The notes beneath the pieces were generated by a model. That model saw only the letters and a program-made list of their open reading frames with translations. It did not search any database and was not told where the DNA came from. Of a DNA stretch of 33,909 nucleotides, positions 14,001-17,457 are shown piece by piece. The DNA lies in assembly GCA_016208495.1 (NCBI GenBank), contig JACQXX010000022.1, positions 1 through 33,909 on the forward strand. The letters are read 5' to 3'. The translations under genes and the position numbers were made by a program. The stretch's first letter is position 1. Every line of letters begins with the position of its first letter. This DNA is from Acidobacteriota bacterium (GTDB lineage Bacteria; Acidobacteriota; Blastocatellia; Chloracidobacteriales; Chloracidobacteriaceae).

Positions 14001-15986
14001 GCCGAATCTGAGGCGGCCCCTGGAACCTACGTCTTAACCATTGCTGGAGCTTCAAATCGAGTCCAGATTGACCCAATTCAAGTTATGTTGATTGTGGAAG
14101 GCAGCGGCGGTGGTTCAAACGGTTCAGTTCGGATTTCAGCTTCACCCGTGCTGCAATCAATTCAACCCGGAGATGACACCACGTACACCCTCTTTTTGAC
14201 CCGCACCAATTTTGATGGCGAAGTGGATGTGACTGTAACCGGAGCCCCATTTGGAGTTGAGGCCGAAGCCGACCCGGATAGTGTCGAGGGCGATGTCACT
14301 CAACTGATTGTGACCAGTGACAATAGTGTGGCGCCGGGAACTTATACTTTGCACATTGAAGGTGCTGCCAGTGGTGCCACGGTGATCGGAACACAGGTTC
14401 AACTGGTGATCGGAAACGGGGGCGGTGGAACTGGTGGAACTGTTACTCTTTCAGCTTCCCCAACCAGTCAAACCATTCGACCAGGGGAAGATACCAGTTA
14501 CACGATCTTTTTGAGCCGGGTGAGCTACACTGGGGAAGTTAATCTCACTGTGACTGGTGCGCCATTTGGGGTCGAAGTTGAGGCAAACCCTGACAGTGTA
14601 ATTGGAAATTCAACCACTCTGGTGGTGACCAGCGAAGCAAGTGCGGCACCCGGAACCTATTCACTTCGCATTACTGGAACGGCCAATGGTGCCACTGTCA
14701 TTGCCACGCAGGTTCAGTTGATCATTGACAACGGTGGCGGTGGTTCGGGCGGAACGGTGACACTTTCGGCTTCACCAAGCAGCCAAACGATTGCGCCTGG
14801 AGATGATACCAGTTACACGATCTTTTTGAATCGCAATAACTTTTCAGGTGAGGTCAACCTGACGGTCACTGGTGCGCCATTTGGGGTTGAAGCTGAAGCC
14901 GACCCCGATAGTGTGTTTGGGAATTCAACCACGTTGAATGTGTTTACCGAAACCAGCGCTGCACCAGGTACCTACACTCTCCGAATTGAAGGAAACGCCA
15001 GTGGCGCCACCGTGACTGGGACACAGGTTCAACTGGTTATTGGGAATGGTGGTGGTGGGACGGGTGGAACGGTGACGCTTTCGGCTTCACCGGGCAGCCA
15101 AACGATTGCACCTGGAGATGATACCAGTTACACGATCTTATTGAATCGCAATAACTTTTCAGGTGAGGTCAACCTGACGGTGACTGGCGCGCCTTTTGGA
15201 GTCGAAGCCGAAGCCGACCCGGATAGTGTTCTTGGAAATTCAACAAGGTTGGTGGTAACGAGTGAATCCAGTGCAGCATCAGGTACCTACATTCTCCGAA
15301 TCGAAGGCACGGCCAGCGGCGCCACCGTCGTTGCCACGCAGGTTCAATTGATCATTGGGAACGGTGGCGGGACAGGCGGAACCGTTACGCTTTCAGCATC
15401 ACCGACCAGCCAAACGATTCCTCAAGGCGAAGATGCCGGCTACACGATTTTCATTTCACGAAGTAACTTTCCAGGCACGGTCACATTGGGCGTTTCGGGT
15501 GTTCCAGATGGTGTCACCACTGAATTTTCACCAGCGAGTACAACTGGGAATAGCTCGGTTTTGACGGTTGTGGTCAGCGCGGATGCGGTTCCTGGAGCCT
15601 ATATGTTGACCATCCAGGGAACCGCGACCGGAGTTGCCATCAATCCAATCCAGGTTGAACTGGTGATTCCTGGCGGGTCAAATGTGAGGCAGGTCATTCT
15701 CTCAGCCTCACCAGCTTCTCAAACAGTAAATGTTGGTGGATCAACGACCTACACTGTCTTCTTGACTCGAACGAATGCCACTGGGGAAGTAAACCTTTTT
15801 GTGGATAACGTCCCAGATGGGGTCGAGGCTGAATTTACAAATGACTCACCGACCGGAAATACCACCCAACTACAAATCTCGGTTGAGAATACTGCGCAAC
15901 CAGGCACGTATGTTTTGATCATTGGCGGGGAGGCAACCGGTGCTGAAGTGATCTCCACACAGGTGACCTTGATTATTCAGCGGTGA
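11091..15986 (+). CDS. giant secreted protein: TIG, Big, NHL propeller, TIG and ten tandem repeats
   Basis: 1631 residues. The signal peptide covers about residues 1-33 (ending FSIEASAQ). Then come a TIG/IPT Ig-like domain (about 34-120, 'INSVNPSQVNVGQ ... KGTGF') and a Big-type Ig domain (about 122-205, 'VPGAQITYASLNPEKATVDA'). An NHL-type beta-propeller follows (about 213-510, repeated 'D...NHVV' and 'GPLGLGLGKDRQIFLVDTAN'). A second TIG domain (about 513-593) precedes ten tandem repeats of about 103 residues from 596 to the end. Each repeat has the frame 'LSASP.SQTI.PG..T.YTIFL.R.NF.GEVNL.V.GAP.GVEAE', a 'PGTYTLRI.G.A.GA' strand and 'TQVQLII', with Gly-rich linkers between several. No membrane anchor or sorting signal is visible. 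The role is probably adhesion or matrix binding at the surface, by architecture only. The Shine-Dalgarno is weak. Confidence 0.85.
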   Translation: MSTFFFHKAFFRLLSGIVSLMAMLCFSIEASAQSVVINSVNPSQVNVGQVPAKVVIKGTGFTPQSTVFFNDVQVTAKVKKSGKKIVVTQLPAELFQVVGAIQVRVIPPSGAPSNTFMLAVGSLNRIQVAQPGGFSLAVGEQFAIQAQVLDQLGNPVPGAQITYASLNPEKATVDATGVVRGLANGVGTIRLTSGDAFLNLIFTVTEVASIPSGIVGDGDLKVDANNQVYATDLRNHVVKSAAVGEPLRNYAGSFGNPGNVDGPLSSSKFNGPLGLGLGKDRQIFLVDTANRKIRRFSPATGQVETLLDQESARTLGGVETWGPRGVVQTPDGLLYITDADNHVVWKAQIDGTKSLSVIAGGVGVAGLVDGPGNSARFNGPQDLVTGTTPTVLVVSDRGNKVVRLVTLPAGEVLTVGAIPAARQSNTTLDPQQNPTGVSFSDPSGLDVDLQGNIYVADGNTVKIVGSQGQNFAVAELAQTGTFQNAVAIAISGTTAYVLDAGRQQVIRVGFQGTPTITSITPSQVKLGENTEVKIQGTNFLPETQVVIDGIPAREVEVESATEIEFRLPPISQAGTYPVVVSHRGGRVESTITIGEAPSFGISASPEEVELVAGMTAQVTINLQRRNFTGPITLQLDRQLLVGVAATFSPNIVTGNSATMTLSALPGIIPGEFKFRVLGTAPGLVASTEIEVKIRPAQPGQVQLSASPVTQTLRAGERTQFTIFLNRDNFAGEVELEVENEPDGIDARIQPEKVTGTTATLEVETSNDLSPGAYTLLIKGEADGAAIFPTRVQVIIENSITAGTVLLSASPVSQAVQPGGVVSYDIFINRTNYSGEVRLSVSGLPSGIEAEFGDDSPDGNQTPLRLTTLRSVSPGAYVLTVEGDAGDAFVQPTQIELIVESEGSGDSSVSLSASPTTQTIQRSGEGQYIIFLNRNGYFGEVNLSVTGAPTGVEAELDPDSVFGDQTTLFVSAESEAAPGTYVLTIAGASNRVQIDPIQVMLIVEGSGGGSNGSVRISASPVLQSIQPGDDTTYTLFLTRTNFDGEVDVTVTGAPFGVEAEADPDSVEGDVTQLIVTSDNSVAPGTYTLHIEGAASGATVIGTQVQLVIGNGGGGTGGTVTLSASPTSQTIRPGEDTSYTIFLSRVSYTGEVNLTVTGAPFGVEVEANPDSVIGNSTTLVVTSEASAAPGTYSLRITGTANGATVIATQVQLIIDNGGGGSGGTVTLSASPSSQTIAPGDDTSYTIFLNRNNFSGEVNLTVTGAPFGVEAEADPDSVFGNSTTLNVFTETSAAPGTYTLRIEGNASGATVTGTQVQLVIGNGGGGTGGTVTLSASPGSQTIAPGDDTSYTILLNRNNFSGEVNLTVTGAPFGVEAEADPDSVLGNSTRLVVTSESSAASGTYILRIEGTASGATVVATQVQLIIGNGGGTGGTVTLSASPTSQTIPQGEDAGYTIFISRSNFPGTVTLGVSGVPDGVTTEFSPASTTGNSSVLTVVVSADAVPGAYMLTIQGTATGVAINPIQVELVIPGGSNVRQVILSASPASQTVNVGGSTTYTVFLTRTNATGEVNLFVDNVPDGVEAEFTNDSPTGNTTQLQISVENTAQPGTYVLIIGGEATGAEVISTQVTLIIQR
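12888..15983 (+). repeat. ten in-frame tandem repeats of about 310 bp
   Basis: Ten units inside the giant gene. Units 5-8 (about 14120-15360) are close to each other at the DNA level as well, with long identical runs such as the stretch after ACCAGTTACACGATC in units 7 and 8. The outer units (1, 2, 3, 9, 10) have diverged. This is the pattern of recent internal expansion by unequal recombination. Confidence 0.85.
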
Positions 15987-16344
15987 ACTTTCAGGATTTC
16001 CAGAGCAAAAAAGGCTGCCCGAGGGCAGTCGCCAAGAAAAGAGAGAATCGGGAGTTTTGAGATTAAAAACCGGATCAGAAACAAATTAAGTCTCTTTCGT
16101 AAGTTTCCTGAGATATTGAATTTGGTAAGTATTTGATTCTTTTCGTGTTTTTCGTGTTTTTCGTGGTTAAAATGTCTTGGAGTTCTCGGTAAAGTACTTA
16201 TACCATTTTGGGCTGAGAGAAATACAAGTCTATCAATTTGCTAATGCGATAGGACCATTCCAAAATGATATGAGGACTTGCGAACAGTGCCGTTGATGAC
16301 GGGGTGGACAATACTGAGACATTAAATTATTGTCAAGTTGTTTT
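15987..16344. other. spacer between the giant gene and the CarH-like promoter
   Basis: Contains a short hairpin soon after the stop (CTGCC-CGAG-GGCAG near 16013-16026, without a clear T tract) and the 9-nt repeat at 16139. No gene is seen. Confidence 0.4.
16139..16165 (+). repeat. short tandem repeat with 9-nt period
   Basis: TTCGTGTTT occurs twice in a row, followed by TTCGTGG, in the spacer before the CarH-like gene. Confidence 0.6.
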
Positions 16345-16377
16345 CCTGGACAAATTCCGGACAGAAGTTTGACAAAT
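16345..16377 (+). promoter_or_regulatory. three 11-bp direct repeats, probable CarH-type operator
   Basis: Three consecutive 11-bp units: CCTGGACAAAT (16345-16355), TCCGGACAGAA (16356-16366) and GTTTGACAAAT (16367-16377). Each carries GACA at the same place. CarH-type regulators are known to bind tandem 11-bp repeats with an ACA core, one repeat per DNA-binding domain. The third repeat contains the -35 box TTGACA, so bound protein would block RNA polymerase. Confidence 0.7.
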
Positions 16378-16398
16378 ATCAGAATGGCCGGTAAGATC
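16369..16398 (+). promoter_or_regulatory. promoter of the CarH-like gene
   Basis: Perfect -35 TTGACA at 16369-16374, 18-bp spacer, then TAAGAT at 16393-16398 (4 of 6). Transcription from about 16405 fits the ATG at 16444 and excludes the longer upstream starts. Confidence 0.6.
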
Positions 16399-16443
16399 GA
16401 AAATGCACCTTCTTATTTTCGTTCTGAATTGAGCCATACATTT

Positions 16444-17376
16444 ATGAAGCAGCCATTAAATTATCCGATTCGTGCGGTCTCAAAACTCACCGGTTTGAGT
16501 ATTGACACCTTACGAGCGTGGGAGAAGCGGTATCAGGCGGTAGTTCCGCTCCGCGATGAGCGAGGTCGGATGTACACCGAGTCTGATTTGGAGCGGCTTC
16601 ATCTGTTGCGGGCAGCCATTGACAAAGGGCATGCCATTGGGCGGGTTGCCGCACTGGCCGATCAGCAGTTACGTGAATTACTTGAGCTAACCCCAATCGC
16701 CCGAGCCAGCGAACTGATATCGGTTCCGATGCGAAAATCACAGCCTCACCTCGATCTGGATCCCTTTATGGAGGCGGTCGAGCGGTATGATTATCTCTGG
16801 ATTGACAAAGAACTTGGACGACTGGCAATTCTGCTTCCAGCACGTGAGTTGATGTATCAGGTGGTGCTGCCATTGATGCGCCAGGTTGGAATTGAATGGC
16901 ATCAAGGCAAATTGAGCATTGCCCAGGAACACATAGTGTCGTCGCTTTTATGCAGGCTGCTGGGATCTCTGATGCGGCTGCATCTCAATTCAAATCCCCC
17001 AGCCAGGCTGCTGTTTGCCACACCAAGCGGTGAGCAGCACGAATTTGGCATCCTCTCGTCCGCGATGCTGGCCACCGGGGGTGGACTTGGCATTTTATAT
17101 CTGGGGTGCGATTTGCCAGCGGAAGAGATCGTTGAAGTGGCGCGAAGGGGTGAGATCGAAGCGGTTGTGCTCGGGGTTGTCGGTACCGGCGGGATCAACC
17201 CGGCAATGAACAGTATCTTGTTTCTGACGAAGCAGTTACCACCACGAACGGAGCTTTGGGTTGGTGGTACCACCAGTGAAGAACTCATTCATGCCATCAA
17301 ACAAACCCGTGCTCAGTGGATTCCGGATTTTGAGACCTATGAAACCCATTTGAAGCGCCTCGGTGCCAGATTTTAA
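16444..17376 (+). CDS. CarH/LitR-like MerR-family regulator with cobalamin-binding photosensor domain
   Basis: 310 residues from the chosen ATG. The MerR-type winged helix lies at about residues 6-75 (YPIRAVSKLTGLSIDTLRAW, 'EKRYQAVVPLRDERGRMYTE'). A helical bundle with W152-H153 and E162-H163 follows (W-x9-EH: EWHQGKLSIAQEH). The Rossmann-like B12 domain has 'PSGEQHEFG' with His199 as lower cobalt ligand, then 'LGCDLPAEEI'. In CarH the Trp and Glu-His pair cap the adenosyl group, and the His next to the Trp takes the cobalt after photolysis; all of these are present. The protein should be a dark-state tetrameric repressor released by light. TTG at 16330 and ATG at 16384 would start upstream of or within the promoter, so 16444 is preferred although its Shine-Dalgarno is poor. 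Known CarH proteins control carotenoid genes; none is nearby. Confidence 0.86.
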   Translation: MKQPLNYPIRAVSKLTGLSIDTLRAWEKRYQAVVPLRDERGRMYTESDLERLHLLRAAIDKGHAIGRVAALADQQLRELLELTPIARASELISVPMRKSQPHLDLDPFMEAVERYDYLWIDKELGRLAILLPARELMYQVVLPLMRQVGIEWHQGKLSIAQEHIVSSLLCRLLGSLMRLHLNSNPPARLLFATPSGEQHEFGILSSAMLATGGGLGILYLGCDLPAEEIVEVARRGEIEAVVLGVVGTGGINPAMNSILFLTKQLPPRTELWVGGTTSEELIHAIKQTRAQWIPDFETYETHLKRLGARF

Positions 17377-17421: not shown

Positions 17422-17457
17422 AAGCCTGAACAGACGCCTGTTCAGGCTTTGTTTTTT
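17422..17457 (+). terminator. strong rho-independent terminator of the CarH-like gene
   Basis: A perfect 12-bp stem (17422-17433 with 17438-17449) closed by the tetraloop ACGC, followed by TGTTTTTTC. Confidence 0.9.

Follow-up and report, generated by a model that had tools for sequence, protein, structure and literature searches.

A mirror-type operator of 11-bp units at a carH-like gene of an Acidobacteriota bacterium, and a candidate second site at ribA

The window analysed here, a stretch of 33,909 nucleotides from an Acidobacteriota genome of 8.38 Mb (177 contigs), carries one CarH-like gene. The three 11-bp units that precede this gene turn out to be one side of a larger element, a mirror-type operator. 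We think it likely that the gene encodes a class I CarH/LitR protein, which would sense light through adenosylcobalamin (AdoCbl), repress at the mirror operator in the dark and let go of it in the light. As far as our tests reach, the variant part is the layout of the operator and its setting, apparently without carotenoid genes; the protein is ordinary. CarH is a model B12 photoreceptor, the operators of which have been mapped in few groups, and the Acidobacteriota are mostly uncultured.

Table 1. Features at carH and at the second site. Positions without prefix are those of the window; L177 and C107 are a locus and a contig of the same genome.
Feature	Position	Strand	Basis or remark
carH-like gene	16444..17376	+	310 aa; MerR DNA-binding and B12-binding domains (Pfam, phmmer)
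Three operator units in 11-bp steps: TGGACA 16347, CGGACA 16358, TTGACA 16369	16347..16374	+	sequence, unit scan
carH promoter TTGACA-17-TAAGAT	16369..16397 (TTGACA 16369-16374, TAAGAT 16392-16397)	+	10/12 consensus bases
Further 11-bp pair TGGACA 16305 / GAGACA 16316, upstream of the mirror element	16305..16321	+	one of two fits TnnACA
Whole mirror operator TTGTC-N6-TTTTC-N3-GACAA-N6-GACAG-N6-GACAA	16330..16375	.	23/25 specified bases of 2+3-unit layout
Divergent promoter-like site TTGACA-17-TATTGT in the mirrored half	16308..16336	-	10/12 consensus bases
Intrinsic terminator behind carH	17422..17449	+	12-pair stem and T run
Mirror site with adjoining second partial array	L177:9297-9365 = C107:115296-115364		5' of ribA, L177:8522-9145 (-); R1, unit scan

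How is the promoter of carH arranged? The GACA cores of the three units lie at 16349-16352, 16360-16363 and 16371-16374, in steps of exactly 11 bp, and the last unit is itself the -35 box, all as the initial annotation had it. Over 1.9 kb the promoter scan returned 6 promoter-like sites against a shuffle mean of 2.2. The published CarH operator unit is nnnnTnnACAn, with the -35 box inside a repeat (PMC9304148). The proposed agreement with this unit holds for the 11-bp length, for the ACA core and for two of the units, TGGACA and TTGACA, which match TnnACA; CGGACA, however, lacks the T. When the whole genome was scanned for three GACA units at 11-bp steps, the exact array turned up at 5 places and the reversed control at 1; the 4 arrays other than that at carH all lie within ORFs. 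Allowing up to one mismatch gave 22 places (13 in the reversed control), of which 17 had one mismatch and, among these, 1 lay outside ORFs. The pattern TTGACA-N7-GACA occurs at 17 places (control 8), 3 of them outside ORFs and none convincing by eye. With the operator lying over the -35 box, the natural reading is that the carH product would repress its own gene in the dark. The likely start of the gene is ATG 16444. An ORF opened by TTG at 16330 would overlap the operator; it probably does not mark the real start, because the predicted promoter would place the start of the transcript near 16404.

Are such repeats found at the carH genes of relatives? At E 1e-25, 20 of 162 genomes of the class Blastocatellia have a CarH match, the present genome included (21 rows, as G150 has two); there is none in the other nine genomes of the window's family. 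Exact 11-bp same-strand pairs of GACA or TGTC occur in 12 of the 20 Blastocatellia carH upstreams with enough sequence, our own among them. These hold 21 such pairs; over 500 shuffles the mean was 0.114, and no shuffle had more than 2. A wider set was drawn from a GTDB genome scan, in which the best 80 of 334 relatives gave 73 loci after removal of 7 copies; 44 of these have 11-bp pairs, with 72 pairs at 11 bp, whereas no other spacing between 4 and 35 has more than 6. Owing to the shared ancestry of the sets these counts are not independent events, and the difference between spacings carries more weight. We conclude from the sequences that the 11-bp repeats at carH are not due to chance. An absence of repeats upstream of orthologues had been named as the finding that would speak against the operator; the comparison came out in its favour, but not for every orthologue, since the pair is absent from the stretch examined in 8 of the 20 Blastocatellia and 29 of the 73 wider regions.

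The three-repeat operator of the initial annotation is present but incomplete as described: it belongs to a larger element with mirrored units and a -35 box on the opposite strand (table 1). The mirrored half of the array reads TTGTCAAG at 16330-16337, and its inner unit is degenerate, TTTTC standing in place of TTGTC. A sequence-only profile built from 40 operators, all from other genomes (R1), scores this element at 21.3 bits. The element equals the layout of the relatives plus one extra unit on the carH side, and two others look like it (L097, 22/25; L100 = G161, 20/25). A survey of minus-strand frames over 15801-16460 found no convincing gene behind the divergent promoter-like site. That site, which points away from carH, may be left over from a divergent partner since lost.

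In the wider set, 42 of the 73 carH loci carry the mirror TTGTC-N6-TTGTC-N3-GACAA-N6-GACAA with at least 16 of 20 bases within the upstream 250 bp, against 0 of 730 shuffles, and 40 of these 42 elements align without gaps. These loci contain 461 other ORF starts, of which 6 score 17 or more and all others 13 or less. By mechanical ORF calls, 31 of the 42 have a divergent minus-strand ORF of at least 60 aa whose start side is no more than 350 bp away. Among the 31 carH loci outside the 42, ten carry a site scoring 16 or better elsewhere in the fetched stretch; by eye these sites lie ahead of the gene run that leads to carH, beside a FAD-oxidoreductase-like gene, or inside an ORF call. Not all carH loci of the class have the mirror layout, since R1 at E <=0.05 finds just 7 of the 20 non-own Blastocatellia ones. 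As a search pattern at 2 mismatches over the 162 class genomes, the mirror hit our own genome only (the reversed control hit one other) and was set aside as too strict for relatives. Among the best matches in the open-licence literature, no title or abstract opening mentions a mirror-type CarH operator or CarH in Acidobacteria. The portions of PMC9304148 drawn on here describe direct-repeat runs, and divergent control by them, with no mirror arrangement.

Other arrangements were also seen. In five of five loci from Methylococcaceae and a proteobacterium (L170-L174) a TGTnnA pair faces a TnnACA pair, each with the 11-bp spacing, just before the gene; this is a mirror layout with a wider centre, so counts of GACA understate the conservation. 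L169 has the TGTnnA pair only. At L055, L056 and L058 (families f3 and f4) three TGTC units at 11 bp are followed, some 40-60 bp on and nearer the gene, by one or two GACA units.

What might such an operator control besides carH? Across the Blastocatellia the divergent neighbour of carH is often a fasciclin-domain gene (by Pfam in L042 and in the second-site gene of L208, by eye in the others), and the same gene run may include DUF378 and NmrA/DUF2867 genes (L055) or a photolyase (L044). Elsewhere in the Acidobacteriota the neighbours include a fatty-acid desaturase (L114) and a flavin amine oxidoreductase with DUF1365 (L118). Control of carotenoid genes is usual for CarH, though other cases exist. 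In the initial annotation carotenoid genes had been called absent and the regulon possibly new. PF00494 (squalene/phytoene synthase) matches just two genes in the genome; because they are adjacent and followed by what is by eye an hpnE-like gene, they are probably part of an hpnCDE set. We consider it plausible that the regulon is not centred on carotenoids.

We ran R1 over the 162 class genomes with stricter filters, scoring the best 40 first-look candidates in each; in our own genome these were 40 of 4581, so that weak sites may be missed there. At E <=0.1 this genome has two places, carH (E 0.0018) and C107:115296-115326 (23.7 bits, E 3.4e-4). The second stands 5' of a divergent GTP cyclohydrolase II gene (ribA; PF00925, E 4.7e-66), at a distance of about 150 bp. 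The mirror pattern with up to 3 mismatches finds it (control 0), and the direct-repeat patterns miss it. No sigma-70-like promoter was found in L177 9000-9800. An Rfam search of the window and L177 at gathering level returned nothing, and hence no FMN riboswitch is recognised at ribA. At E <0.01 the 162 genomes yield 8 loci: five at carH (our own, G145, G147, G150 and G161), the ribA site, and one each in G038 and G034, genomes with no CarH match at 1e-25. With E <0.01, some 1.6 matches would be expected by chance in 162 genomes, and the E value in G038 is better than that of the ribA site; for these reasons we give ribA, judged from sequence, roughly an even chance as a candidate second CarH target. 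No RibA homologue at E 1e-5 occurs in the other carH loci examined, so that comparison lends the link no support, and the best matches in the open-licence literature hold no ribA in a LitR regulon. L210 and L211, R1 matches at E <0.01 in two genomes without a CarH match, may reflect chance or another regulator. In G150, which bears CarH, a weaker R1 site (L208:4502-4534, E 0.028) stands before a second fasciclin operon.

How, then, might the system work? Cofactor binding, oligomer state, repression, light release and the control of ribA are what we infer. In the dark, an AdoCbl-bound oligomer on 16330-16375 would cover both the -35 box of carH and that of the divergent promoter-like site, keeping both promoters off. 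In the light the Co-C bond would be broken, the oligomer would fall apart and the promoters would open. In this genome the relatives' divergent partner was not found and the other operator-like site lies 5' of ribA; light would thus raise carH and perhaps the supply of flavin. In its fullest form, the proposal is of an Acidobacteriota bidirectional switch, in which two outward-facing 11-bp runs about a 3-bp centre, each bearing a -35 box at its far end, let one CarH oligomer shut two promoters; here the switch would have been freed from carotenoids and from the divergent partner and wired to flavin synthesis through ribA. We advance this form tentatively, at somewhat below an even chance.

A simpler account is that carH regulates only itself, the ribA site being a chance or decayed one and the light regulon having been lost along with the fasciclin-type partner genes. 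No fasciclin-domain match exists in the genome, and in the 3.5-kb locus of its one photolyase (PF00875) R1 matches nothing; the lack of a good promoter at the ribA site, the comparable scores in two genomes without a CarH match and the want of a RibA homologue beside other carH genes point the same way. On the other hand, the ribA site outscores the carH site, a second partial array adjoins it, and its E value of 3.4e-4 is that for one genome. Pure autoregulation seems to us quite possible while falling a little short of probable.

Is the product of carH equipped for the light-sensing part? Pfam finds MerR_1 (E 9.4e-15) and B12-binding_2 (E 6.2e-07) over cut-off, with PF02310 under it (E 1.4e-4; 22.1 bits against 32.1), and the top solved relatives by phmmer are the Thermus thermophilus LitR/CarH structures 3whp (E 8.2e-23) and 5c8d (E 1e-22). 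Counted from ATG 16444, W152, H153, E162 and H163 (W-x9-EH) and the lower ligand H199 are all in place as first numbered; across 31 aligned proteins E162, H163 and H199 never vary and W152 hardly does. The light-response motifs are given as GxxW, EH, GxxH and GxxxP (PMC11796333). Here the first three read GIEW, EH and GEQH, and GCDLP is GxxxP by our own assignment. The B12 motif D/ExHx2G/P, x41, SxT/V, x22-27, GG (PMC9304148) is represented by EQHEFG and GG at the stated distances, with G244 in the position of the Ser; 7 of 8 alignment rows, our protein included, have Gly there. At the Thermus dimer salt bridge the phmmer alignment shows the Asp kept and Q198 in the position of the Arg; this Arg-Asp pair or an equivalent is reported for many CarH proteins, not all (PMC9304148). 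With Q198 for Arg and G244 for Ser, oligomerization may differ from that of Thermus CarH.

The AlphaFold model (mean pLDDT 91.3, pTM 0.67) resembles Thermus CarH in its predicted fold. In VIA-align its 24 top rows are CarH, photocobilins and CtMerR (Z 17.4-19.4). Against the B12 domain 8c37 the rmsd is 3.0 over 195 residues. Against full-length 5c8d, 256 residues align with 29% identity and an rmsd of 16.3, which suggests that in the model the two halves of the protein are turned relative to each other. MttC and mutases, other B12 proteins, come next (Z 15.1-17.3, for the most part aligned over just the B12 domain) and are nearly tied, so fold or Z alone does not single out CarH. Taken together, domains, solved relatives, signature motifs and predicted fold uphold the CarH-like identity, and as far as sequence tests reach the product appears to be an ordinary class I CarH/LitR.

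The two deviations, Q198 and G244, also allow another mode, akin to CarA or class II proteins: the DNA-binding half and the 11-bp operator would be real, and control would be independent of AdoCbl and light, relieved for example by a protein partner. The family does have B12-independent relatives (PMC9304148, PMC9758184). Against this, Wx9EH is intact, with H153 and H199, and an intact Wx9EH is the mark that sets CarH apart from CarA (PMC9304148); the conservation of W152, E162, H163 and H199 argues in the same sense. We regard such a mode as unlikely.

Could the repeats belong to another regulator, with CarH acting elsewhere? A second MerR-type B12 protein is encoded in the genome (L008:1285-2217, minus strand, contig C45), a full-length relative of CtMerR (E 4.9e-86 to 8jbs). 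However, its 3.3-kb locus has no R1 site, and many carH loci have the repeats, in agreement with the published CarH unit (PMC9304148), which makes this reading very unlikely. CtMerR itself is matched nearly exactly in G001, a genome of the window's family (688.7 bits over 320 residues), and this would make the family that of Chloracidobacterium or a near neighbour of it. The history of the carH product fits descent within the class with losses in relatives, with modest support: in a tree of 94 proteins it groups with L097, five family-f7 proteins and, from the same order, G012 (support 85/88, unresolved inside); G013, another member of that order, lies elsewhere.

The dehydrogenase/FAD-oxidase cluster (17794 onward), which the initial annotation described as a lipid/alcohol oxidation cluster, has adjacency in its favour, but the terminator said to separate it from carH is indeed there (table 1; the region has 6 terminator-like sites, the shuffle mean being 2.1) and R1, at up to E 0.5, matches nothing in the window beyond 16328-16377, so that it finds no support and is a most improbable CarH target.

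The occurrence of the mirror layout at carH over much of the phylum raises the question of how an oligomer that reads direct repeats would read two converging runs. The profile can be used to find light regulons in the Acidobacteriota; among the neighbours examined there, fasciclin, photolyase, desaturase and FAD-oxidoreductase genes take the place of crt genes. The ribA site raises the possibility that a GTP cyclohydrolase is under the control of light.

How does the system compare with those already known? With Thermus thermophilus CarH/LitR (5c8d, 3whp) it shares the MerR and B12 domains, the W/H/E/H set, the lower-ligand His, the 11-bp units and a -35 box within one of them; it differs in its overall sequence (29% identity), in the Gln for Arg at the salt bridge, in an operator mirrored on the other strand and in that no carotenoid genes are recognised nearby. 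Chloracidobacterium thermophilum CtMerR (8jbs/8jbt) likewise has a light-responsive B12 domain, but its identity to the carH product is 17% over 208-209 residues, and the genome has a separate gene of that type. In Pseudomonas the light regulon of the class II LitR proteins PplR/PmlR includes photolyase, GTP cyclohydrolase I (folE), and fatty-acid and short-chain dehydrogenase genes (PMC9758184). The likeness lies in the kinds of gene; the class differs, PplR/PmlR being reported to act without B12 binding and with a LOV partner (PMC9758184). The operators of Bacillus megaterium and myxobacterial CarH also consist of 11-bp TnnACA units, degenerate ones being tolerated, and in Sorangium one CarH site serves two divergent promoters (PMC9304148). 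The Myxococcus xanthus operator contains inverted repeats as well; the authors argue that it is not these that are read (PMC9304148). As those operators are described in the parts of PMC9304148 cited here, B. megaterium and the myxobacteria have direct-repeat runs on one strand, whereas the Acidobacteriota element consists of two outward-facing runs about a 3-bp centre.
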